From positions 4,760 through 25,004 of the IMG/VR virus record IMGVR_UViG_3300030389_000305: 20,245 nt of DNA; one strand, 5' to 3'. Positions 2,772-17,432 of this stretch are shown piece by piece; within the stretch, counting starts at the first letter, position 1, and every line of letters begins with the position of its first letter. Under the pieces are notes generated by a model. That model was not told the DNA's origin. It saw only the letters and a program-made list of their open reading frames with translations, and did no database searches. A program made the translations under genes and the position numbers. This DNA is from a virus.

Positions 2772-3378
2772 TATTAACTTTCATGGAGAACTCGCTGATT
2801 TTATAGGATATAAATCATTAGAGGCAAAAGTCTCTACTGTAGCTGAGACAATGAGATTTATTATATGTAATTTTCCTAAAGCTGAAGCGTATATGGCAAA
2901 AAGATACTATAAAGTGATATTAGGAACGCATGAGGTTGACGAGTCAGAGTTGCATTATCCTATGGGTAATTCTGATATAAATATTGTTCCTGTGATTAGT
3001 GGATCTGGTGGTAATTTTGGAAGAATACTTTTTGGAGCAGCTCTGATAGGAGCATCATTCTTTTTCCCCGGAGCAGGTTTGTTTGGTACTACAAGTTTTT
3101 CGGGTGCTGCTGCTGGAGCAGGTCTTGGTACATTTGCAGGTACAGCTTTATCTGCTGTTGGTGCTGTGATGGTTTTAGGCGGTGTAAGTGATATGTTATT
3201 TCCCTTACCAAAAGAACCTGATTTTTCAAGTGAGGGAGATCCTAGAATATCATTTAATTTTTCTGGAACTCAGAACACATCAAGAGCAGGGACTCCTGTT
3301 CCAATTGTATATGGAGAAATTTTTACAGGATCTGTCGTGATTTCTGCTGCTATAGATACTGAGCAGGTACAAGCATGA
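2761..3378 (+). CDS. I: Tail assembly protein, lambda gpI-like
   Basis: This 205-residue protein starts inside the end of gpK (11-base overlap) behind AGGAGG at 2744-2749. The first ~78 residues are a small alpha/beta domain ending in INIVPVISGSGG, as in gpI, where it resembles a ubiquitin-like fold. A long Gly/Ala-rich hydrophobic stretch (about 88-145) follows, then FNFSGTQN...GTPVPIVYGE (165-186), the typical closing motif. gpI works with gpK, gpL and gpJ at the tip and is not fully understood biochemically. ATGs occur at both 2761 and 2764, so the true first residue may be either. Confidence 0.87.
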   Translation: MMRNINFHGELADFIGYKSLEAKVSTVAETMRFIICNFPKAEAYMAKRYYKVILGTHEVDESELHYPMGNSDINIVPVISGSGGNFGRILFGAALIGASFFFPGAGLFGTTSFSGAAAGAGLGTFAGTALSAVGAVMVLGGVSDMLFPLPKEPDFSSEGDPRISFNFSGTQNTSRAGTPVPIVYGEIFTGSVVISAAIDTEQVQA

Positions 3379-6300
3379 CAAAAGAAAATAAAAAAATTAT
3401 TAGAGGATCTTTTGGAGGCAGACCATCTCCTCCCCCTCCTCCTACAAGAACTCCAGATACCTTACATAGTAGACAGTTTGTAACTATTCAAGATTTGATT
3501 TCTGAGGGGGAGATTGAAGGATTTGCAACTGCTTCAAAAGAAGGACGTAGTAAAAATACAACTGCATATAATAATGCTGCATTAAAAGATGTTTTTTTAA
3601 ATAAAACACCAGTATTAAAATCAAATGCAAATTCTGCAAGCCCTGCATCGACAGATTTCAATCATCAAGATGTTACATTTGTTCCAAGATTTGGTACATC
3701 AAATCAATCATTTATTCCAGGCATTGAGACAAGTGAATCGCCTACAAACGTAGGAGTTACAGTTACGCAATCATCGCCTGTAACAAGACAGATAACTAAC
3801 ACAGATGTTGATGCAATAAAAATTACTTTAACTTGGCCTCAGTTGCAAGTAGTTACTAACGATGGAGATATTTTAGGAACTACTGTTGATTATAAAATAC
3901 AAATACAATACAACTCAGGAGGTTTTAGCGATATTATTACTGACACAGTAAGTGGTAGATCCGCTGATGCTTATCAAAGAGATTTACGAGTAACAATAAA
4001 TGGTTCTTTTCCAGTAGATATTAGAGTTGTAAGGGTCACGGCAGATGCATCGGATAGTAACACTCGTGATGATTTTCAATTTACAAGCTTTTCAGAAATT
4101 ATTGATAATAAATCTCCTTATTTAAATAGTGCATATGCACATCTAAGACTTGATTCACAAAAATTTAGTTCTATACCGCAGAGAATGTATAGGATTAGAG
4201 GCATAAAAGTAAGAATACCTGGAGCTGGTGCATCTGGATCTGGAACACCAACTGTTGATAATGCTACAGGCAGAATAGTGTATCCAGATGGTTATATTTT
4301 TAATGGAGTTATGGGTGCTGCTGTTTATACAAATTGCCCTAGTATGGTGCTACTTGACCTTCTCACAAATACTAGGTATGGTCTAGGCTCTCATATTATA
4401 GATAGTAATTTAGATTTATTTAGCTTTGTAGCAGCTAGTAAATATGCTAATGAGTTAGTTGATGATGGTACAGGTTCAGGTAGTACAGAGGCAAGATTCA
4501 GTTGCAATGTAAATATACAAAAAGAAAGTGAGGCTTTTGATGTCATTAATGATTTGTCATCAGTAATGAAATGTATGCCTATATGGACGGCAGGTGCAAT
4601 AACAATTACTCAAGATAAACCTGTAGATCCAAGTTATTTGTTTAATCTAGCCAACATTGCGTCAACAGGTTTTAATTACACAGGTAGTAGCTTAAAACAA
4701 AGACACTCTGTTGTGAAAGTGAGTTACTTTAATATGGACTCTCGTGAGATAGATTATGAGGTTGTAGAAGACAGCACAGCTATAAGTAAGTTCGGGGTTT
4801 CGATTAAAAATATAAAAGCATTTGGTTGCACTAGTCGCAATCAAGCTGCTCGTCTAGGACGCAGTATACTTTTTGCTGAACAAAGGGAGTCGGAGGTAAT
4901 TTCATTTACAACTTCTATAGATTCGGGAGCAATAGTTAGACCCGGAAGTGTTATTGCAGTTAATGATCCTGTTCGAGCAGGGGCAAGAAGAGGTGGTCGT
5001 GTTATTGCTGCTACTACAACAAAAATCACTATAGATTCATTTGGTAGTACATCATTACCTGATATAAGTGATAATCCAAAAATAAGTGTAATTTTACCTG
5101 ATGGCAAAGTTGAAGAGCGAAATATCACAAGTTATACAGGAGGAAACGAAGTAAATGTTAATACTGCTTTTTCTCAGACTCCGAATGTAAATACAATTTA
5201 CTTATTAACTAGTACAAGTTTAGAAACACAATTATTCAGAGTAATAACTGTAGAAGAACAAGATGATGTGACTTACCAAATTTCAGCATTATCATATGTT
5301 CCGGGCAAGTATGCATTTATAGAAGATGGGACAGCACTTCCAACTAGAACTGTTTCTCTACTAACAGAATTAAAAGATCCACCAGGCAACTTGGTTGTTG
5401 ATGAGACAACAGTAGTTATAAATAATATTGCTAGGAGTAAAGTAATTATTAGTTGGCAGCCTGTACAAGGTGTTTCTAAATATTTAGTAAGTTATAAATT
5501 TGAGAGTGGAAACTATGTATCAGCAGAAACTTATTCTCCTGATTTTGAGATATTAGATACACAGAAAGGAACTTATGAAGTACAAGTATCTTCTTATAAT
5601 GCATTGTTAGAATTATCTCCAAATTCAACAAGTAAAATATTTGTTGCCGAGGGAAAAACAGGAATTCCTGATAATGTTACTAATTTAACTGTAGAACCTA
5701 TAAATGAGCAATTTATAAGACTTAGATTTAATCAAAGTACTTCTGTAGATGTGGTTCATGGGGGTCGAGTATATGTAAGGCATACAAATCAAACAGGAAA
5801 CAATGCTACTTTTGAAACTTCACAAGATATTATCCAGGCGGTTGCAGGTAATTCTTCTGAAGTAATCTGTCCAGCTTTAACAGGAAGTTATCTCCTTAAA
5901 TTTCAAGATGATGGTGGTAGATTTAGTGCTACAGCAGCAAAAGTAGAACTTACTCTTCCAAATCTTGCTGATTCAGCAATAGTCAAAACAGATAGAGAAG
6001 ATACTGATGGAACTCCATACAATGGAACAAAGTCAAATGTAGTATATGATTCAACTCTTGGTGGATTAAAACTTATAGATCCAGTCGCAAATGCTACTGG
6101 TACTTATGATTTTGTAGATACTCTTGATTTGGGTGGTACATTTTCACTTGTCTTAAAAAGACATTTTCAAGGCACAGGTTTTTATACAGGAGATCAATTT
6201 GATAATAGAACAGATTTTATTGATACATGGACAGATTTTGACGGAACAGAAGCGAATGATGCAAATGCAAAAATAGCTGTACGCACAACAACAGATGATC

Positions 6301-6725
6301 CTAGTAGTTCTCCAACCTATGGGTCATTTAATGATTTTGCAAATGGAAGTTTTAGAGCTAGAGGTTTTCAATTCAGAATTACTTTAGAAACCGCAGATTC
6401 TGCACAAAATATGAACTTACAACAAGCAGGTTATTCTGCAACTATGTTGTCTAGAACAGAGCAATCTTCGTTAATATCATCAGGAGCGAGTGCAAAAGCG
6501 GTGTCATTTACAGCACCATTTTTTACAGGCACATCAGGACTTGGAAATGCAAATAGTTTTCTACCATCTGTTGGAATTTTTCCACAAAATATGGAAACAG
6601 GAGATTATTTTGAAGTTACTAATATATCAGGAACTGGTTTTACAGTTCATTTTAAAGACTCAAGCAATGCTAGTATAAGTAAGAATTTTACCTATAGTGC
6701 TACCGGGTTTGGTAAAGGGGGTTAA
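3375..6725 (+). CDS. J: Tail tip / host-specificity protein, lambda gpJ-like
   Basis: This is the largest gene here (1116 residues), coupled to gpI by an ATGA overlap. A basic, proline-rich leader (five prolines at 19-23) precedes LISEGEIEGF (41-50), the gpJ start signature. Further landmarks are RYGLGSHI, VIND...MKCMPIW, QRHSVVKVSY and AFGCTSRNQAARLG (482-495), all of which align with lambda J. About 665-860 looks like two fibronectin-III-like beta domains. The last ~250 residues (GFQFRITLETAD, ending in TGFGKGG) are beta-rich and unlike the coiled-coil/receptor-binding end of lambda J. It is inferred to form the central tip trimer on which the fibers encoded downstream assemble. Confidence 0.92.
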   Translation: MTKENKKIIRGSFGGRPSPPPPPTRTPDTLHSRQFVTIQDLISEGEIEGFATASKEGRSKNTTAYNNAALKDVFLNKTPVLKSNANSASPASTDFNHQDVTFVPRFGTSNQSFIPGIETSESPTNVGVTVTQSSPVTRQITNTDVDAIKITLTWPQLQVVTNDGDILGTTVDYKIQIQYNSGGFSDIITDTVSGRSADAYQRDLRVTINGSFPVDIRVVRVTADASDSNTRDDFQFTSFSEIIDNKSPYLNSAYAHLRLDSQKFSSIPQRMYRIRGIKVRIPGAGASGSGTPTVDNATGRIVYPDGYIFNGVMGAAVYTNCPSMVLLDLLTNTRYGLGSHIIDSNLDLFSFVAASKYANELVDDGTGSGSTEARFSCNVNIQKESEAFDVINDLSSVMKCMPIWTAGAITITQDKPVDPSYLFNLANIASTGFNYTGSSLKQRHSVVKVSYFNMDSREIDYEVVEDSTAISKFGVSIKNIKAFGCTSRNQAARLGRSILFAEQRESEVISFTTSIDSGAIVRPGSVIAVNDPVRAGARRGGRVIAATTTKITIDSFGSTSLPDISDNPKISVILPDGKVEERNITSYTGGNEVNVNTAFSQTPNVNTIYLLTSTSLETQLFRVITVEEQDDVTYQISALSYVPGKYAFIEDGTALPTRTVSLLTELKDPPGNLVVDETTVVINNIARSKVIISWQPVQGVSKYLVSYKFESGNYVSAETYSPDFEILDTQKGTYEVQVSSYNALLELSPNSTSKIFVAEGKTGIPDNVTNLTVEPINEQFIRLRFNQSTSVDVVHGGRVYVRHTNQTGNNATFETSQDIIQAVAGNSSEVICPALTGSYLLKFQDDGGRFSATAAKVELTLPNLADSAIVKTDREDTDGTPYNGTKSNVVYDSTLGGLKLIDPVANATGTYDFVDTLDLGGTFSLVLKRHFQGTGFYTGDQFDNRTDFIDTWTDFDGTEANDANAKIAVRTTTDDPSSSPTYGSFNDFANGSFRARGFQFRITLETADSAQNMNLQQAGYSATMLSRTEQSSLISSGASAKAVSFTAPFFTGTSGLGNANSFLPSVGIFPQNMETGDYFEVTNISGTGFTVHFKDSSNASISKNFTYSATGFGKGG

Positions 6726-10151: not shown

Positions 10152-10366
10152 GTACTCCGAATAAAGTCGAAGTATCACAAGTCTCAGATGTTACAACTGT
10201 AGAGATAACTACAGTTGGGCCTCAAGGTCCAGCTGCTAGTGGTTTTGAATTTAATGGAGACAACAAAGTTAATGGTTCAATTCCTGTATTTAACTCTTCA
10301 ACAAGTAGATTTGAAGCAACTGCAACCCACACCATTCTTACACTAGTCGATGGAGGTAATTTCTGA
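10148..10366 (+). CDS. Small fiber-linked protein with a collagen-like GPQGPAA motif
   Basis: This 72-residue protein has an N-terminal strand VEVSQVSDVTTVEITTVG, a short collagen-like GPQGPAA (29-35), and a polar end (IPVFNSSTSRFEATATH). VEITTVGPQGP resembles the head of longer collagen-containing phage fibers, so this could be a stand-alone docking or neck piece. ATGA overlap upstream and a TGATG overlap with the 578-residue fiber downstream suggest stoichiometric production. It is not a recognised named family. Confidence 0.55.
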   Translation: MSTPNKVEVSQVSDVTTVEITTVGPQGPAASGFEFNGDNKVNGSIPVFNSSTSRFEATATHTILTLVDGGNF

Positions 10367-12102
10367 TGGCAAACACAATTAGAATTAAAAGATCTACAGG
10401 ATCATCAAACCCAACCTCGTTAGAAAATGCGGAAGTTGCTTTTAGAGAAGGCGATGAAGTACTAATCTATGGTAAGGGGAGTGGGGGTGCTGGAGGTTCA
10501 GCTACAAGTATCATCCCTATTGGAGGTAAAGGTGCATTCTTTGATAAGGCAACAGTACAGAATGCAAACAAAGTTTTAGCAGGCCCCGGATCAGGGTCTG
10601 ATGCTGCACCTGCATTTCGAGTTCTCGTTGCCGCCGATATTCCTTCCCTAAATTCCTCCAAGGTCAGTAATTTCAATGCCGCAGTTCAGAGCAATAAATT
10701 AAATGAGCTTACTGCTCCTGATGGTGCTGTAAGTGCAAATAGTCAAAAAATTACAAATTTAGCAGATCCTACTTCTGATAACGATGCTGCAAATAAAGGT
10801 TATGTAGATTCTGTTGCACAAGGACTTGATGTTAAAGACTCAGTTAAAGTTGCAACAACAGCAAACATCACATTATCTGGAACACAGACTATTGATGGAG
10901 TTGCGGTTTCTGCTGACGAAAGAGTACTTGTAAAAAATCAAAACACAGCCTCAGAGAACGGACTTTATCTTTGTAAAGCAAGCACTTGGACAAGAACAGA
11001 TGATTTAGCGGCAGGGGCTGATGCCGCAGGTGCTTTTGCTTTTGTTGAGCAAGGTACTGTTAATGGAGATAATGCTTTTGTATGTAGTTCTGACAAGGGA
11101 TCTGCGGTTACAGGGACTAATAATCTTACCTTTGTGCAGTTCTCCGGGGCAGGTCAAGTTATAGCAGGGGATGGTTTAGATAAGTCTGGTAATACTCTAT
11201 CTGTCGATTTGAAATCAAATGGTGGACTTGTTATTGAATCTACTGAAATTGCTATTGATCTTGCTGCTAGTTCTATAACAGGAACTTTAGCAATTTCTGA
11301 TGGTGGTACAGGTGCAACGAGTGCTTCGGCTGCAAGGACAGCTCTAGGTGTTGCGATTGGATCAGATGTACAGGCTTTTGATGCACAACTTAGTGACATA
11401 GCTGGTTTAACTCCTACAGATAGTAATTTTATCGTTGGTAACGGATCTAATTTTGTTCTTGAATCAGGAGCTACAGCTAGAGCAAGTCTTGGAGTCGCTA
11501 TTGGAAGTCAAGTACAAGCTTATGATGCTGATTTAGATAATTTATCAGGTTGCCAATCAGGAGGATCTGCGGCACTTGCTGCTTTAACTGAAGCAGAGAT
11601 ACAAATACTAGATGGAGCAACTTTATCGACAACCGAGTTAAATTATGTTGATGGTGTTACTTCTGCAATACAAACTCAATTAGATGCAAAACAAGCTTTA
11701 GATGCTGACCTAACTGCTTTATCAAGCTGTCAGTCTGGTGCTGCAACCGCACTTGCATTACTTACATCAACAGAGGTAGCAATTTTAGATGGAGCAACTG
11801 TAACGACTGCTGAATTGAATATTTTAGATGGAGTTACATCAACAACTGCTGAATTAAATATCTTAGACGGAGTTACATCAACAGCAGCAGAATTAAATAT
11901 TCTTGATGGTGTTACTTCTACAACTGCTGAATTAAATTTATTAGATGGGGCAACATCTGCGACTTCCACAACTTTAGCGGCGGCAGATCGAATTATAGTG
12001 AATGACAATGGAACTATGAAACAAGTTGCTTTTACTGATCTAGTTACATTTTTGGAAAATGGAAGTGTCTCAGGTTTAGATATAGATGGGGGGAGCTACT
12101 AA
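10366..12102 (+). CDS. Long tail fiber with ELNILDG repeats
   Basis: This 578-residue fiber starts MANTIRIKRSTGSSNPTSL, which resembles the N-terminal docking domain of major-tropism-determinant-type fibers. Recognisable fiber segments follow: KITNLADPTSDNDAANKGYV near 127-146, TLAISDGGTGATSASAARTA near 312-331, and LGVAIGS twice. The C-terminal third is repetitive: a 47-residue unit (DADL..LS.CQSG...LDG.T...ELN..DGVTS) occurs twice and ends in four 13-residue ELN(I/L)LDG units. Such repeats are expected to form a rigid trimeric shaft. No catalytic or chaperone domain is seen at the end. The start overlaps the previous stop by one base. Confidence 0.82.
   Translation: MANTIRIKRSTGSSNPTSLENAEVAFREGDEVLIYGKGSGGAGGSATSIIPIGGKGAFFDKATVQNANKVLAGPGSGSDAAPAFRVLVAADIPSLNSSKVSNFNAAVQSNKLNELTAPDGAVSANSQKITNLADPTSDNDAANKGYVDSVAQGLDVKDSVKVATTANITLSGTQTIDGVAVSADERVLVKNQNTASENGLYLCKASTWTRTDDLAAGADAAGAFAFVEQGTVNGDNAFVCSSDKGSAVTGTNNLTFVQFSGAGQVIAGDGLDKSGNTLSVDLKSNGGLVIESTEIAIDLAASSITGTLAISDGGTGATSASAARTALGVAIGSDVQAFDAQLSDIAGLTPTDSNFIVGNGSNFVLESGATARASLGVAIGSQVQAYDADLDNLSGCQSGGSAALAALTEAEIQILDGATLSTTELNYVDGVTSAIQTQLDAKQALDADLTALSSCQSGAATALALLTSTEVAILDGATVTTAELNILDGVTSTTAELNILDGVTSTAAELNILDGVTSTTAELNLLDGATSATSTTLAAADRIIVNDNGTMKQVAFTDLVTFLENGSVSGLDIDGGSY
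11803..11958 (+). repeat. Four tandem 39-bp repeats (13-residue TTAELNILDGVTS units)
   Basis: Units lie at 11803-11841, 11842-11880, 11881-11919 and 11920-11958 inside the long fiber. The peptides are TTAELNILDGVTS, the same again, TAAELNILDGVTS and TTAELNLLDGATS. Third codon positions differ between copies (for example gat/gac, gtt aca/gtt act). Degenerate relatives occur upstream near 11590-11670 and 11766-11802. Copy number changes would lengthen or shorten the fiber shaft in 13-residue steps. Confidence 0.9.
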
Positions 12103-13376: not shown

Positions 13377-13607
13377 ATGAGAAGTATTATTGAAAAACAA
13401 ATCCTTGAATGGAAAGAAGAACTTGCAAAACAAGTACAGACAAAAAATCAAGCAGAGAAAGTTTTAAGTGATACTAATCAAAAAATACTTATGATTGAGG
13501 GTGGGATACAGGCACAGGAGATGTTGTTGAGGAAAATCGAGTCAGCATCCCAGCAAGCAAGTAAAGTGGAGCAAGACCCAAAATCAAAGCAAAAACCATC
13601 AAAGTAA
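13377..13607 (+). CDS. Small coiled-coil protein of unknown function
   Basis: This 76-residue, very hydrophilic protein is almost entirely predicted helix. Residues 1-60 follow a heptad-like pattern (IIEKQILEWKEELAKQV... LLRKIESASQQ), and a Lys/Gln/Pro tail ends in KQKPSK. No signal peptide or TM is seen. It begins 3 bases after the closing fiber with no obvious ribosome-binding site, so it is probably translated by readthrough of the same ribosomes. It could be a fiber accessory or the first gene of the envelope block. I do not recognise the family. Confidence 0.6.
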   Translation: MRSIIEKQILEWKEELAKQVQTKNQAEKVLSDTNQKILMIEGGIQAQEMLLRKIESASQQASKVEQDPKSKQKPSK

Positions 13608-13649
13608 TTGGGGTTAATGCTTTTAAAAATGCTTCTTTAATTAAATCCA

Positions 13650-13874
13650 ATGTTTCAAAAAATCTCTAATATTTTGAGTATAGCTTCATTTGTACTCATA
13701 GTCAGCACTTTAATCTCAGCATTTTTTGGTTACAAATATGTAACCTCAGAACAATTTAAAACAAAGATAATGAATGAAGTTTTAGGTAATGTTCAAGGAC
13801 TTATGCCAAAGATTCTTGACGCAGAAATACCTGAGATGACAGGGCCATCAATGCAACTACCTAAGTTAAAGTGA
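13650..13874 (+). CDS. Small single-pass membrane protein
   Basis: This 74-residue protein has one clear membrane segment at about 8-28 (ILSIASFVLIVSTLISAFFGY), followed by a polar, partly amphipathic region and a proline-rich end (AEIPEMTGPSMQLPKLK). The lack of a small-residue cleavage motif after the hydrophobic stretch favours a retained anchor over a cleaved signal. Its stop overlaps the GTG start of the zinc-ribbon gene (GTGA). Function is unknown. Context among other membrane and secreted proteins suggests a role at the host envelope. A holin cannot be excluded. Confidence 0.6.
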   Translation: MFQKISNILSIASFVLIVSTLISAFFGYKYVTSEQFKTKIMNEVLGNVQGLMPKILDAEIPEMTGPSMQLPKLK

Positions 13875-14032
13875 ATTGTTATTGGTGTAATAGTGAATTA
13901 ATACCAAGTGGAGATATAGATATTGATGAATCTATGCCAACTTATCCTGAGTTTTCAGTAATGACTAATTTATCTTGTTCTAAATGTTATTCGCAAGTAG
14001 AAGTATTGAAAAAAAGAGATGCCTTCGATTGA
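13871..14032 (+). CDS. Small zinc-ribbon protein, GTG start
   Basis: This 53-residue frame starts at GTG 13871, overlapping the previous TGA (GTGA), and ends at TGA 14030-14032. The peptide opens (M)NCYWCNSELIPSGD, giving CxxC at residues 3-6, and LSCSKC gives a second CxxC at 36-39. This is the layout of a four-cysteine zinc ribbon, and I recall very similar short WCN-type proteins in many cyanophage genomes. It overlaps the next gene by 14 bases in another frame. Binding partner and function are unknown. Confidence 0.72.
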   Translation: MNCYWCNSELIPSGDIDIDESMPTYPEFSVMTNLSCSKCYSQVEVLKKRDAFD

Positions 14033-14678
14033 AATACAAGAAATTGTAATACCCGAAATACAATCTATTACTGTTCCAATTTTTGTACCATCGACTTCAA
14101 CTTCTTTAGATGTCCCTTTACCAAATATAAATTTACCGGGATGTGTTAAAACTCATCGTGATATAAGACCGACTAATACTGCAATTGTTGAAGATGATGT
14201 AAACGGCTCATTTTATTCTTGTCCACCTGGTTATGAGATACCATCTTATGTGCCTATAGATTACAATTCTAAAAAATTAGAAATAGTAGAACAAAAACAA
14301 GAACAAAAACCTGCACAGAAAGTTCCAGAATCAAAGTTTGAACAACCACAAATCCCAGAGCAAAAAAAACAAAAAGAAACTGTAAAATTAGTTGAATGTC
14401 CAGGAGACGGTAATTTAAGAGTAGGTCAATATGCTTCAGAACTTAAACTAGAGATTGTCGTATCTCATCGCAGATCGGATGATGGGCTTAAATGCTATGA
14501 GGTCTATGAAAGTGTTCCGTTCATCTCTCAGTACTTACCTCCTCTTTCTACTGTTGTTAGCACTACTGCTATTGGACTTATCGCTGCGAGTTCTCCAATC
14601 TTACTCTCAGTTATTAAGCCTCTCGTGAAAAAAATAGTAGGACGTTTTAGTAACAAATCTACTACTGAGAAGGAATGA
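14019..14678 (+). CDS. Proline-rich protein with C-terminal membrane anchor (conserved cyanophage hypothetical)
   Basis: This 219-residue protein starts with hydrophobic/proline strands (IEIQEIVIPEIQSITVP), then NINLPGCVKTHRDIRPTN and GSFYSCPPGYEIPSYVP. A Gln/Lys/Pro/Glu-rich linker (about 88-122) joins this to a second domain with VECPGDGNLRVGQY and LKLEIVVSHRRSDDGLKCYE. A membrane segment lies at about 176-198, followed by a basic tail. Cysteines 42, 68, 127 and 159 could pair. There is no N-terminal signal, so tail anchoring is likely. I recall similar proteins in cyanophage genomes, always uncharacterised. The gene converges with the minus-strand operon, overlapping its last gene by 17 bases. 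Confidence 0.68.
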   Translation: MPSIEIQEIVIPEIQSITVPIFVPSTSTSLDVPLPNINLPGCVKTHRDIRPTNTAIVEDDVNGSFYSCPPGYEIPSYVPIDYNSKKLEIVEQKQEQKPAQKVPESKFEQPQIPEQKKQKETVKLVECPGDGNLRVGQYASELKLEIVVSHRRSDDGLKCYEVYESVPFISQYLPPLSTVVSTTAIGLIAASSPILLSVIKPLVKKIVGRFSNKSTTEKE

Positions 14679-15453
14679 TTTTATGTGTATGCGGAATAAC
14701 TTGATTAGCTTTTGGAACTAAATAAACATCCTTACATAAATTAAAAAATGGGCTATCTTTGGTCAACATTATTCCCTCTTGTTTTAATTTTCCACATTCA
14801 CGAATTCGAGCTATCTGCCAATCTAATCGTTTATTTTCTAGGACTTGCTTCTGTATAGATATCTGCGTATCAGCAGCAGACTTGCATTGATTCTGTAAAC
14901 CACGATCTAAAGGAATACTAAAACTTGCAGATATACCAAAATTTAAGGCATAACTATCTTTATTTGTTCCTGAGTAATTTAATTGTTCATATAGCACATT
15001 CCCCGGATTATCAGGCACACCATCTTCATTTGCGTCTGTTGGATCGTAAACTGGTGTAGAATAATAATCCCGATAAGGTTTTAAATAATTTGCTCCAAAT
15101 GTTGTGAAGGGGCTAATTGTGAGTGTCGGCCCTTGGCAAACAATATTTCCCCCATATTGATTAGTGACCATGTTACCTGTAAGCGATTGGATTGCCATAT
15201 TGGTCACAGATCCATTATTAGATTGGCTTACAGCATTAGCAAAGACTTGCGTTGGATATAAAAGAATTACTGAGAGAATACTGAGGTACTTGTAATTACG
15301 CTTTGTGATTCTATATTTCTTTGTATTGTTGTCACGTTTGAGACTCCACCGGGGCCTCGATAAGTCTCCGTAAATTGGAATGCGTTTCCAGAATTTGAAT
15401 CGCTTAATGTGAATACTGGTTTGTTTTCTGCCGATAAATCTAGCCCTGTCCAT
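14662..15453 (-). CDS. Secreted cysteine-containing protein (export cassette gene 4); true start probably near 15309
   Basis: The frame runs from an ATG at 15453 (263 residues), but residues 1-48 overlap the upstream gene and look like a shadow. From about residue 49 there is a convincing signal peptide: basic TKRNYKY, hydrophobic LSILSVILLYP, and cleavage at QVFA-N. No ATG, GTG or TTG lies just before it; an ATC at 15309-15307 is the best placed codon. The mature part has GSVTNMAIQ, VCQGPTLTISPF, a calcium-loop-like DANEDGVPD (140-148 in the long numbering), FGISASFSIPLDRGLQ and a helical end. Cysteines 106, 190, 220 and 240 could form two disulfides. Similar proteins occur, I believe, in other cyanophages. 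Function is unknown. Confidence 0.66.
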   Translation of the reverse strand: MDRARFIGRKQTSIHIKRFKFWKRIPIYGDLSRPRWSLKRDNNTKKYRITKRNYKYLSILSVILLYPTQVFANAVSQSNNGSVTNMAIQSLTGNMVTNQYGGNIVCQGPTLTISPFTTFGANYLKPYRDYYSTPVYDPTDANEDGVPDNPGNVLYEQLNYSGTNKDSYALNFGISASFSIPLDRGLQNQCKSAADTQISIQKQVLENKRLDWQIARIRECGKLKQEGIMLTKDSPFFNLCKDVYLVPKANQVIPHTHKIIPSQ

Positions 15454-15707
15454 GTATAAGTTTGACCACCTACTGTCCCATTAACATTCGTTGTGTCGGG
15501 AGCAACTGATCCATCGGTTGAGACACCCAATCCAGTAACAGTATACTCATAAGAATTACCATGATAATCTGTAGAAGTGATAGTCTCATTGATAGATGTG
15601 GTTGTATTGGTGGTGCTACTAACTGTCCCGGTAGTGAAGTTAGGCACAATAGGTTGAGCATTGACAGGTACACTAAATAAAAAAACTAGCAGTAAAAGTT
15701 TTTTCAT
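15267..15707 (-). CDS. Secreted beta-rich protein (export cassette gene 3)
   Basis: This 146-residue protein has a textbook signal peptide: MKKLLLLVFLFSVPVNA with cleavage after A17. The mature part is Thr/Ser/Asn-rich and strand-forming (SINETITSTDYHGNSYEYT, GQTYTWTGLDLS, QFTETYRGPGGVSNV) and has no cysteine. It ends SVITSTSVFSQ. It starts 3 bases after the stop of the previous exported protein, and its signal peptide is strikingly similar to that protein's. The predicted destination is the periplasm or cell surface. No catalytic motif is visible. Confidence 0.68.
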   Translation of the reverse strand: MKKLLLLVFLFSVPVNAQPIVPNFTTGTVSSTTNTTTSINETITSTDYHGNSYEYTVTGLGVSTDGSVAPDTTNVNGTVGGQTYTWTGLDLSAENKPVFTLSDSNSGNAFQFTETYRGPGGVSNVTTIQRNIESQSVITSTSVFSQ

Positions 15708-15710
15708 AAA

Positions 15711-16217
15711 TCATCTTATAGTTAGCTCCGTTACAAACTGTCCTGTAACAGTAGATCCAGAATCTCCCTCATGTAATCCTGTGATCCCATGACCTGATGT
15801 AATAGAACCTGCAAAACCATCTCCACTTCCAGCTACAGTTGAAATTACACTTCCGAAGTTAGGAACTGTTCCAGCAGTAATAGTGCTATTGCTGCTTGGA
15901 ATCGTATCTGCTGCTGTGAATGATTCTGTTAGTGACCATGTACTTGCACAGTTAGCAGGGTCTTCTCCACATCCATTAATAGAGTAATCTCCAGCATTTA
16001 AAGTAACTGCACCATTACTTACAGTTAAACCTCCGATCTGATCGTTTGAATCACTTGTTCCGATATTACTCCCAGACGCACTATACGATGCCCCAATCCG
16101 TGTGGCCTGTGTCATAGCTGCGTCAACTTTTACGCTTACGCTCGATGTAAATTTTGAAGTGATGTCAGCGTGAACTGGGGCTGCTATTAAAAATAATAAT
16201 GGAAGTAGTTTTTTCAT
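15711..16217 (-). CDS. Secreted beta-rich protein (export cassette gene 2)
   Basis: This 168-residue protein starts MKKLLPLLFLIAAPVHA, a Sec signal peptide with predicted cleavage between A17 and D18. The mature chain begins DITSKFTSSVSVKVDAAMTQ and is rich in Ser, Thr and Gly with alternating strand character. C83 and C90 lie close together in NGCGEDPANCAS and may form a disulfide, which would fit an oxidising periplasm. The start overlaps the upstream membrane-protein gene (ATGA), so both are translated together. I do not recognise a functional family. Confidence 0.68.
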   Translation of the reverse strand: MKKLLPLLFLIAAPVHADITSKFTSSVSVKVDAAMTQATRIGASYSASGSNIGTSDSNDQIGGLTVSNGAVTLNAGDYSINGCGEDPANCASTWSLTESFTAADTIPSSNSTITAGTVPNFGSVISTVAGSGDGFAGSITSGHGITGLHEGDSGSTVTGQFVTELTIR

Positions 16218-16579
16218 TTTTGTGTTTTAGGGTCGATTACTTCTGCACCTTCTATTTTAATAGGTGTTATTACCCTTATAGTCTGCACCATACCTTGATT
16301 TTCGGCAACTTTATCGTCTTTCTTGCTACCTTTTTTGGCTTGCTCTAGCCCGAAAGAACTAAGGGCGGTTGCTAACAAGCTGGCTGGAAATGTTATATCT
16401 TGCTTTTCTCCTGTTGTGATGCCTGGAATCTTAGGCAAGTAGTTGCTTGTAACTAGAAGTCCACTCCAAAAAACTACCAAAAGCCTTACTGCAACTGAGA
16501 TGTACTCAAACTGTTCTTCTTTGTCACTTACTTTTTCTTTCAATTTCTGCAAAAGATTTTTAGGTTTCTTAGCTGTCAT
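16214..16579 (-). CDS. Small membrane protein, holin-like topology (export cassette gene 1)
   Basis: This 121-residue protein has a basic N-terminus (MTAKKPKNLLQKLKEKV), a strong membrane segment at about 27-47 (VAVRLLVVFWSGLLV) and a weaker hydrophobic helix at 63-79 (TFPASLLATALSSFGLE). A highly charged stretch (AKKGSKKDDK) and a polar tail follow. Two membrane helices with charged ends resemble a holin, but this is topology only. It is the first gene of the minus-strand operon, and its stop overlaps the start of the first secreted protein. Its start region carries a short direct repeat (16573-16597). Confidence 0.62.
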   Translation of the reverse strand: MTAKKPKNLLQKLKEKVSDKEEQFEYISVAVRLLVVFWSGLLVTSNYLPKIPGITTGEKQDITFPASLLATALSSFGLEQAKKGSKKDDKVAENQGMVQTIRVITPIKIEGAEVIDPKTQK

Positions 16580-16622: not shown

Positions 16623-16853
16623 GTGGTAGAAGTAATAGCAGCAGTTGGGGGAGCAATGATGACAGCTTGTTTTGTATCTGTAGGATCTATTTCTTATAGA
16701 GGAAGACAATCAAGAGATGATCTCGTGCGAAATACAACTGCTATAGAATTATTAACAACAAAGATAGATGATATGCATGATGACATGAAAGAAGTATTTC
16801 ATCGATTAAAAGAAGTAGAACTAGCAGTAGCAGAGATTAAACCAAGAAGATAG
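16623..16853 (+). CDS. Small TM plus coiled-coil protein
   Basis: The GTG start at 16623 is chosen because AGAGGA at 16609-16614 lies 8 bases upstream. The 76-residue product has an N-terminal membrane segment (about 3-24, VIAAVGGAMMTACFVSVGSI), a basic SYRGRQSRDDL stretch, then a heptad-rich helix (TTKIDDMHDDMKEVFHRL... VELAVAEIK). This is the architecture of a membrane-tethered coiled coil, compatible with a spanin-like or signalling role, but there is no lipobox partner. It is divergent from the export operon and may be co-regulated with it. Confidence 0.6.
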   Translation: MVEVIAAVGGAMMTACFVSVGSISYRGRQSRDDLVRNTTAIELLTTKIDDMHDDMKEVFHRLKEVELAVAEIKPRR

Positions 16854-16885: not shown

Positions 16886-16938
16886 AGCTCTAGATGGATA
16901 GGTTGAGCTACTATAAGACTAGCAATCTACTAATTACA

Positions 16939-17100
16939 ATGCTAAAAATTATTGAGCCTATACTTTTTGCTTTCCTTCGTGGAAAAGCAATAAAAAAACT
17001 CGCACTTGATATAGTACGAGCTATGGTTAAAAAAACTGACAATACAGTAGATGATCGTCTTTGTGATGTTTTAGAAAAAGCTTTATTTCCAGGTAGATAA
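16939..17100 (+). CDS. Small helical protein (conserved cyanophage-type hypothetical)
   Basis: I prefer the ATG at 16939 (53 residues, MLKIIEPILFAFLRGKAIKK) over the in-frame ATG at 16894. The latter would add 15 residues of unlike composition derived from DNA next to the hairpin. The protein has a hydrophobic amphipathic N-terminus, a basic middle and an acidic VDDRLCDVLEKALFPGR end. I recall short proteins with a similar KLA...VDD...EKALFPG layout in cyanophages. There is no clear ribosome-binding site for either start. Function is unknown; membrane association is possible. Confidence 0.55.
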   Translation: MLKIIEPILFAFLRGKAIKKLALDIVRAMVKKTDNTVDDRLCDVLEKALFPGR

Positions 17101-17234: not shown

Positions 17235-17432
17235 ATGCATCGACTAAATTTTGTAAAATGTCCTAACTGCAATACTCTTTCAAGACAGAAAGTCATACAA
17301 TCTGATAGAAACTCAGAGCATATAATTATTAGAAGAAGATTATGTTTTAAGTGCGAACACGTTTGGCATACAATACAATATCCAGAGCAAACTATAGAAG
17401 ACAGAAAAGCACAGTATATACGGAATAACTAG
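17235..17432 (+). CDS. NrdR-like zinc-ribbon protein
   Basis: This 65-residue protein carries CPNC (C9, C12), then an Arg-rich strand IIIRRRLCFKC (C37, C40) and HVWHT. The spacing and the RRR-C pattern match the N-terminal zinc-ribbon DNA-binding domain of NrdR, the repressor of ribonucleotide reductase genes. The ATP-cone domain that NrdR uses to sense nucleotides is absent. It could bind DNA as a phage regulator or act as a protein adaptor. The gap upstream is AT-rich with no clear ribosome-binding site. Confidence 0.65.
   Translation: MHRLNFVKCPNCNTLSRQKVIQSDRNSEHIIIRRRLCFKCEHVWHTIQYPEQTIEDRKAQYIRNN

Follow-up and report, generated by a model that had tools for sequence, protein, structure and literature searches.

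Besides homologous hypothetical proteins of P-SSP7 and Syn9, the closest described systems to the locus considered here are the lysis genes of the tailed phages T7 and lambda and those of a few cyanophages. In T7, the holin gene 17.5 lies between the tail fibre and small terminase genes, and the spanin genes 18.5/18.7 are located just past the small terminase, all three within the stretch from tail fibre to large terminase. The T7-like cyanophage P60 carries an endolysin, gp37, between its tail fibre and small terminase genes. A survey of spanins found 20 phages of Prochlorococcus and Synechococcus without an identifiable spanin, and proposed that the host outer membrane is perhaps fragile and that proteins of other topologies might serve as spanins (PMC6139136). 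The spanin-less list of that survey includes P-SSP7, Syn9, P-SSM2, P-HM1, Syn1, and others (Kongari 2018, PMC6139136). Here, we describe a cluster of four genes, designated g0 to g3, in a window of 20,245 nucleotides (nt) that makes up 20 kb of the 25-kb virus record IMGVR_UViG_3300030389_000305 from IMG/VR. At somewhat less than even odds (roughly 0.45), we propose that the cluster is a late envelope-disruption (lysis) module that is not homologous to the known ones. The nearest named isolates, judged by the tail-tip protein J (3375-6725 of the window), are the Prochlorococcus siphoviruses MED4-117 and P-HS2/MED4-184.

The first-pass annotation, made from the sequence alone, had described four tightly coupled minus-strand genes between 16579 and 14662, encoding a two-helix membrane protein followed by three others whose signal peptides are cleaved after HA, NA, and FA. 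The open reading frames (ORFs) are present at these coordinates (Table 1); there is an overlap of 4 nt between g0 and g1 and a gap of 3 nt between g1 and g2, and the start codon of g3, ATG 15453, lies inside g2, a dual-coding overlap which that annotation had missed. The g0 protein is a member of DUF6450 (59.1 bits against PF20048, curated cut-off 25), and its layout is holin-like, with a basic N-terminal tail, a transmembrane (TM) segment, a short loop, a second weaker hydrophobic segment, and a basic tail. In a hydropathy scan, one strong TM segment is found at residues 27-45, and the stretch at ~63-80 falls under the scan cut-off, so that only the first of the two proposed helices stands out clearly; the annotation of the P-SSP7 homologue, gp43, gives two TMHMM segments. 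With 121 amino acids, basic tails, and one strong and one weak TM segment, g0 is at most a candidate for the form of a class II holin, a small protein with two TM segments and an N-in/C-in topology. The g2 protein matches DUF6322 (PF19847) at 88.5 bits (curated cut-off 30.6) and phrog_650 at 3e-38. No function is assigned to any of the families of g0 to g3 (DUF6450, phrog_564, DUF6322/phrog_650, and phrog_848/1755), and no hydrolase domain is found in the four proteins by Pfam or among functions assigned to the matched PHROGs.

The g1 and g2 proteins carry textbook Sec signals, MKKLLPLLFLIAAPVHA/D (APVHA/D, the slash marking the predicted cleavage site) and MKKLLLLVFLFSVPVNA/Q (VPVNA/Q), respectively. 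A signal of the same type, LSILSVILLYPTQVFA/N (TQVFA/N), is found in g3 at residues ~57-72, behind a basic segment of ~54 residues. With a home-made rule used in place of SignalP, requiring a 9-residue hydrophobic run and a -3/-1 motif, signals are found in most distinct relatives: 149/156 for g1, 135/155 for g2, and 153/161 for g3 (87-96%). The three signal peptides claimed earlier thus hold up, the first two as classical ones and the third as a clear one set well inside the protein. The Sec pathway of cyanobacteria serves both the periplasm and the thylakoid lumen, and either could be the destination of the exported proteins. Four cysteine residues of g3 are kept without exception in phages of all three tail types, which is consistent with disulphides formed outside the cytoplasm; g3 also contains a DxNxDGxxD loop and a long helix at residues 184-225.

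Compared with the Rz/Rz1 genes of lambda and the T7 lysis genes, the cluster likewise combines a small membrane protein with two envelope proteins encoded in overlapping frames. No sequence homology to those genes was found, and the module differs from them in that it contains no lipoprotein, its two frames overlap only in part, the second gene having its start within the first, and both products bear Sec-type signals. The cysteine that a lipobox places at +1 is missing from the three cleavage sites (VHA/D, VNA/Q, and VFA/N), unlike in the outer-membrane lipoprotein of a two-component spanin, and g2 contains no cysteine at all. The basic N-terminal segment of g3, followed by a hydrophobic segment and a 42-residue helix (in a model with a mean pLDDT, the predicted local distance difference test, of 56), might suggest an i-spanin, a type II inner-membrane protein with a periplasmic coiled coil, but the hydrophobic segment looks cleavable. 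Overlapping frames, which g2 and g3 share with Rz/Rz1, are common though not universal among spanins and are not specific to them.

The block is widespread. Searches with tblastn matched 402, 401, and 443 phage records for g1, g2, and g3, respectively, all of them named as Synechococcus, Prochlorococcus, cyanophage, marine virus, or uncultured. The related genes are found in ~450 marine cyanophage records, spanning siphoviruses, T4-like myoviruses, and T7-like podoviruses, as the first-pass annotation had anticipated in expecting cyanophage homologues without an assigned function; its remark that such serial export is rare does not apply to marine cyanophages, in view of how common these genes are among them. 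Judged from the sequences, the recurrence of the block with conserved sequence in hundreds of phages is beyond chance. A host or other bacterial origin of g3 is rejected, as one scan of genome contigs gave no bacterial relative. The layout of MED4-117 is that of the window. In P-SSP7, gp43 is the DUF6450 protein, gp44 belongs to phrog_650, and gp45 to phrog_1755, and g1 is missing, giving the order DUF6450-g2-g3. This block lies between the tail-fibre genes and the small terminase, on their strand, a position that matches the holin/spanin interval of T7 and that is filled by the endolysin gp37 in P60. The order g1-g2-g3 is kept in Syn9 (gp167-gp166-gp165) and S-RIM8. In P-SSP7 (gp42-gp45) and Syn9 (gp165-gp167), the families are homologous to those of the window and the dual-coding overlap of g2 and g3 is likewise present; a literature search found no study naming a function for Syn9 gp165-gp167. 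In T4-like phages, the trio g1-g2-g3 is encoded on the strand opposite to most surrounding genes and DUF6450 lies apart from it, on the other strand, so that an operon led by the membrane protein, as first described, holds for the window but not for the T4-like relatives.

The co-occurrence of these genes was followed in a panel of 17 phages, taken mostly from the published spanin-less list, with MED4-117 and T7 added. DUF6450, phrog_650, and phrog_1755 are jointly present in ten (P-SSP7, Syn9, MED4-117, P-HM1, P-SSM2, P-SSM4, Syn1, Syn33, S-SSM7, and Syn19) and jointly absent from the other seven (P60, S-CBS4, S-PM2, Syn5, PSS2, Pf-WMP4, and T7); g1 tracks the module, P-SSP7 excepted. Absence of endolysins was assessed with four families and, for selected ORFs of two genomes, with Pfam scans. 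Of the four families, the GH19-type endolysin (phrog_181) is confined to P60 and a free-standing Phage_lysozyme to S-PM2; Peptidase_C39_2 occurs in S-PM2 and PSS2 only, and Amidase_2 only as a free-standing enzyme of T7 and in a 925-amino-acid ORF of Syn33. The published annotation of PSS2 includes a lysozyme gene, gp098 (PMC2784084). A free-standing enzyme of the kinds tested is thus present in 4/7 module-less phages (PSS2 by its published annotation) and in 0/10 module phages (one-sided hypergeometric p ~0.015, computed by hand and ignoring relatedness). No muralytic Pfam domain was found at E<=1e-5 in the selected ORFs of P-SSP7 (28) and MED4-117 (36). P60 gp37, S-PM2 p156-p157, and PSS2 gp098 are recognisable peptidoglycan hydrolases, unlike the module proteins, which have no such domain. 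In a second set of phages, picked for having a lysozyme and so not an unbiased sample, ACG-2014f, S-CREM1, S-CBS3, and S-SRM01 carry the S-PM2-type lysozyme and lack g3. S-CAM7 also has this lysozyme, and its sole g3 match (record 31410-31868) holds three stop codons, perhaps the mark of a decayed copy. Module and endolysin are not strictly exclusive, since the freshwater cyanomyophage DSL-LC02, in which the module block adjoins psbA/psbD, has both.

In S-PM2 itself, a T4-like phage without the module, p156-p161 resemble a classical lysis region: genes for a C39-type peptidase, a lysozyme, an RlpA-like protein, and one further product, with a possible lipobox (LSSC), are clustered there. The S-PM2 lysozyme ORF seems to extend upstream of its annotated start.

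Among T4-like relatives, 22 of 60 distinct sequences of the 150 nt preceding g1 contain the T4-like late motif NATAAATA, described for S-PM2 (PMC2984593), against 4.0 expected, with most copies 29-36 nt before the g1 start; it is absent from this position in the siphovirus groups. The lysis reading draws on this motif together with the position of the P-SSP7 block, the co-occurrence of g0, g2, and g3 and their complementarity with free-standing endolysins, the confinement of all matching phage records to cyanophage, marine virus, or uncultured names with no bacterial relative in the scan, the listing of many carriers as spanin-less, which leaves a slot open, and the overlapping envelope genes, which recall spanin pairs. 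In the proposed mechanism, g0 would be an inner-membrane protein comparable to a class II holin, and g1 to g3 would pass through Sec into the periplasm. There, g2 and g3 would act, g3 possibly being kept at the inner membrane until it is processed, and the wall and outer membrane would be breached at the end of infection to release the progeny. The timing, the membrane topology, the contacts between partners, and the act of lysis itself are what we infer here.

Several points weigh against this assignment. The proteins g1 to g3 have no lipobox, so none is a canonical o-spanin, and the missing hydrolase domain leaves the wall-cutting step unexplained; the wall could be cut by tail-associated enzymes or by an unrecognised protein. 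DSL-LC02 has the module plus lysozyme and C39 peptidase genes within ~7 kb, and Syn5, S-CBS4, and Pf-WMP4 show neither the module nor the tested enzymes. The absence tests span only a small number of families, and relatedness among the phages makes the counts non-independent. In T4-like phages, the module adjoins replication genes and hsp20 and not known lysis genes, and the enrichment of the late motif could stem partly from shared ancestry in AT-rich DNA. Searches with Foldseek and VIA-align gave no significant fold match for g2 or g3. A stronger form of the proposal, in which the holin-like DUF6450 protein and its Sec-exported partners, two of them from overlapping frames, alone open the cell, as a lysis system common to marine cyanophages of all three tail types without a classical endolysin or lipoprotein spanin, we consider unlikely.

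Of the four functions that the first-pass annotation had offered, an envelope-spanning lysis complex is the best supported. Two others, superinfection exclusion and surface remodelling, come together in the idea that the host surface is remodelled or masked by the exported proteins, also by blocking receptors, g0 being a membrane partner unrelated to them. The lack of enzymatic domains in the three Sec-exported proteins would fit such a role, the long beta strands of g2 would suit surface or outer-membrane assemblies, and the genes are very common in marine cyanophages, which compete for hosts. This explanation is nevertheless unlikely: the late-promoter-like motif upstream of g1 in T4-like relatives, which weakens superinfection exclusion in particular, and the co-occurrence with a holin-like protein speak against it, and it does not predict the anticorrelation with free-standing endolysins.

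That the proteins belong to the virion or associate with it, as decoration or tail-associated fibres, with the signal-like segments serving another purpose, appears quite unlikely. The block does come after the tail-fibre genes in P-SSP7 and in the window, the beta proteins rich in serine and threonine look like fibre material, and weak, non-significant Foldseek matches point to phage collar and tail proteins. Tailed virions, however, assemble in the cytoplasm, and cleavable Sec-type signals are found by the simple rule in most relatives; in addition, the g2 region is labelled 'hypothetical protein' in the record of S-SM1, a phage whose virion proteome was measured (PMC3037559). An action as thylakoid-lumenal effectors, aiding photosynthesis or thylakoid integrity during infection, would suit the lumenal branch of Sec, the restriction to cyanophages and marine virus records, and the wealth of photosynthesis genes in T4-like carriers, with the DSL-LC02 block beside psbA/psbD, but it is improbable, as small podoviruses and siphoviruses also carry the genes, at the tail-fibre end of their structural genes, and the genome collection searched gave no relative.

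The overlapping frames of g2 and g3, which enter the lysis reading by analogy with spanin pairs, are conserved. The overlap measures 166, 172, or 187 nt in 186/189 relatives having both genes, and its g3 frame is free of stop codons in all 155 distinct g2 sequences; synonymous shuffles are stop-free in 10%, 1.5%, and 0.2% of cases in the three overlap-length classes. The g3 start codon begins with A in 154 of these sequences and with G in one, so that ATG or GTG is kept. In the g2 frame, this base occupies the wobble position of a codon for Ser, Thr, Gly, Gln, Glu, or Lys, depending on the phage, and it precedes an invariant Trp codon. No further ATG, GTG, or TTG occurs in the window between ATG 15453 and the g3 signal peptide, and hardly any of the siphovirus relatives closest to the window has an alternative start there. 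The mean net charge of the g3 N-terminal segment exceeds the level forced by g2 in three groups (12.5/8.5, 7.6/4.3, and 9.2/6.5), by ~1 standard deviation in each. Synonymous variation is not clearly lowered within the overlap (differences at 4-fold sites, upstream versus overlap, of 0.245/0.296, 0.583/0.505, and 0.502/0.451 in three groups), and the case for dual coding therefore rests on the absent stops, the start codon, and the charge. That g3 instead starts at a non-standard codon near its signal peptide, the open overlap being a by-product, would agree with the poor conservation of the N-terminal segment but is highly improbable, given the uniformly open frame, the wobble base held whatever the g2 amino acid, the excess of basic charge, and the GTG or ATG codons that P-SSP7 and DSL-LC02 also have in their overlaps. 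A programmed frameshift from g2 to g3 is not needed, as the conserved start accounts for the open frame.

In P-SSP7, gp45 is annotated from a GTG that yields no signal peptide, and its frame is open further upstream, where a GTG 112 nt inside gp44 gives the signal peptide SVSPVLA/EG and brings back the conserved overlap; the annotated start (record 38627-39238) is probably too late. In DSL-LC02, g2 and g3 overlap by 64 nt with an ATG start, and the annotated g3 start likewise misses the signal peptide. Within g2 codons ~41-80 (window 15470-15590), 4-fold-site variation is very low in the window's own clade (0.02-0.12) but not in the other two groups; possible causes are a sweep in the recent past, gene conversion, and an RNA element.

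Relationships among the proteins and models of their structures were also considered. The g1 protein is likely a distant paralogue of g2 (hhalign 96.7%, a score that comes partly from the shared signal-peptide region); homology of g3 to g1 or g2 was rejected (hhalign only 1.4% and 0.3%). In the AlphaFold2 model of g2 (mean pLDDT 76.7; predicted template modelling score, pTM, 0.40), two long strands dominate, at 26-48 and 122-145. The model of g3 (mean pLDDT 56.1) has a beta region followed by the long helix, and its N-terminal 102 residues are below 50. Against the PDB, Foldseek gave no match for g2 or g3 at E<=0.001 (best E 0.017), and a PDB sequence search with the profiles of g1 and g3 gave none. 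The top VIA-align hit of g2, examined for a pore-forming beta-barrel or ring fold, was the lysenin pore stem (Z 4.8, root mean square deviation 5.5, 52 residues aligned); this hit and that of g3 (Z 3.4) are put down to a long hairpin and to a long helix, respectively, and were left unused. An NCBIfam match of g2 to maltoporin (E 0.005, 15.8 bits against a cut-off of 765) is noise, and no PADLOC match to defence proteins was found for five proteins at E<=0.1.

Table 1. Genes of the cluster and neighbouring genes, with positions in the window.
Feature	Position	Strand	Description
g0	16214..16579	-	121 amino acids; DUF6450 (PF20048; phrog_2714/721) small membrane protein
g1	15711..16217	-	168 amino acids; Sec-exported protein, phrog_564; 'OMP1 protein' in S-RIM8
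g2	15267..15707	-	146 amino acids; Sec-exported protein, phrog_650, DUF6322 (PF19847)
g3	14662..15453	-	263 amino acids; phrog_848/1755; basic N-terminal segment of ~54 residues before signal peptide
g2/g3 overlap	15267..15453	-	187 nt, different reading frames (dual coding)
phrog_568 gene	13650..13874	+	74 amino acids, single TM segment; linked in siphovirus relatives
phrog_570 gene	14019..14678	+	convergent neighbour; Pro/Glu-rich, C-terminal TM segment
phrog_26178 gene	16623..16853	+	N-terminal TM segment, charged helical tail
phrog_2738 gene	16894..17100	+	small hydrophobic protein; Syn5 gp48 of same family

The neighbouring proteins at 13650, 14019, and 16623, described earlier as membrane-anchored, do have one hydrophobic segment each, all being encoded on the plus strand. 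Of the ten panel phages with the module, nine have the phrog_570 neighbour; P-SSP7 gp42 resembles it by layout only. The phrog_26178 gene has the layout of P60 gp38 and Syn5 gp47, before the small terminase, and a match to phrog_2738 also lies directly after the g3 homologue in P-SSP7. Elsewhere in the window, tandem TTAELNILDGVTS-type repeats (11730-12008) lie inside a tail-fibre-like protein (10366-12102), and a hydrophobic ORF of 53 amino acids on the minus strand (13489-13650) partly overlaps a plus-strand ORF (13377-13607). Small proteins with paired CxxC motifs are encoded at 13871-14032 and 17235-17432, the latter with an NrdR-like zinc ribbon match barely over the cut-off.

The lysis mode of the phages of Prochlorococcus and Synechococcus, the most abundant photosynthetic bacteria in the ocean, is poorly assigned. 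The cluster provides a concrete co-inherited gene set, common to most of the 'spanin-less' marine cyanophages of the panel and absent from P60, S-PM2, and PSS2, which have a classical endolysin or lysozyme, together with a conserved overlapping-frame start for g3 that is overlooked in the annotated genomes of P-SSP7 and DSL-LC02. Genetic tools exist for S-TIP37, Syn5, and Syn9 (PMC8776855). Module genes are carried by S-TIP37 and Syn9, so the idea of a role in lysis is directly testable in these phages. The release of cells by Prochlorococcus and Synechococcus phages feeds carbon cycling in the ocean.

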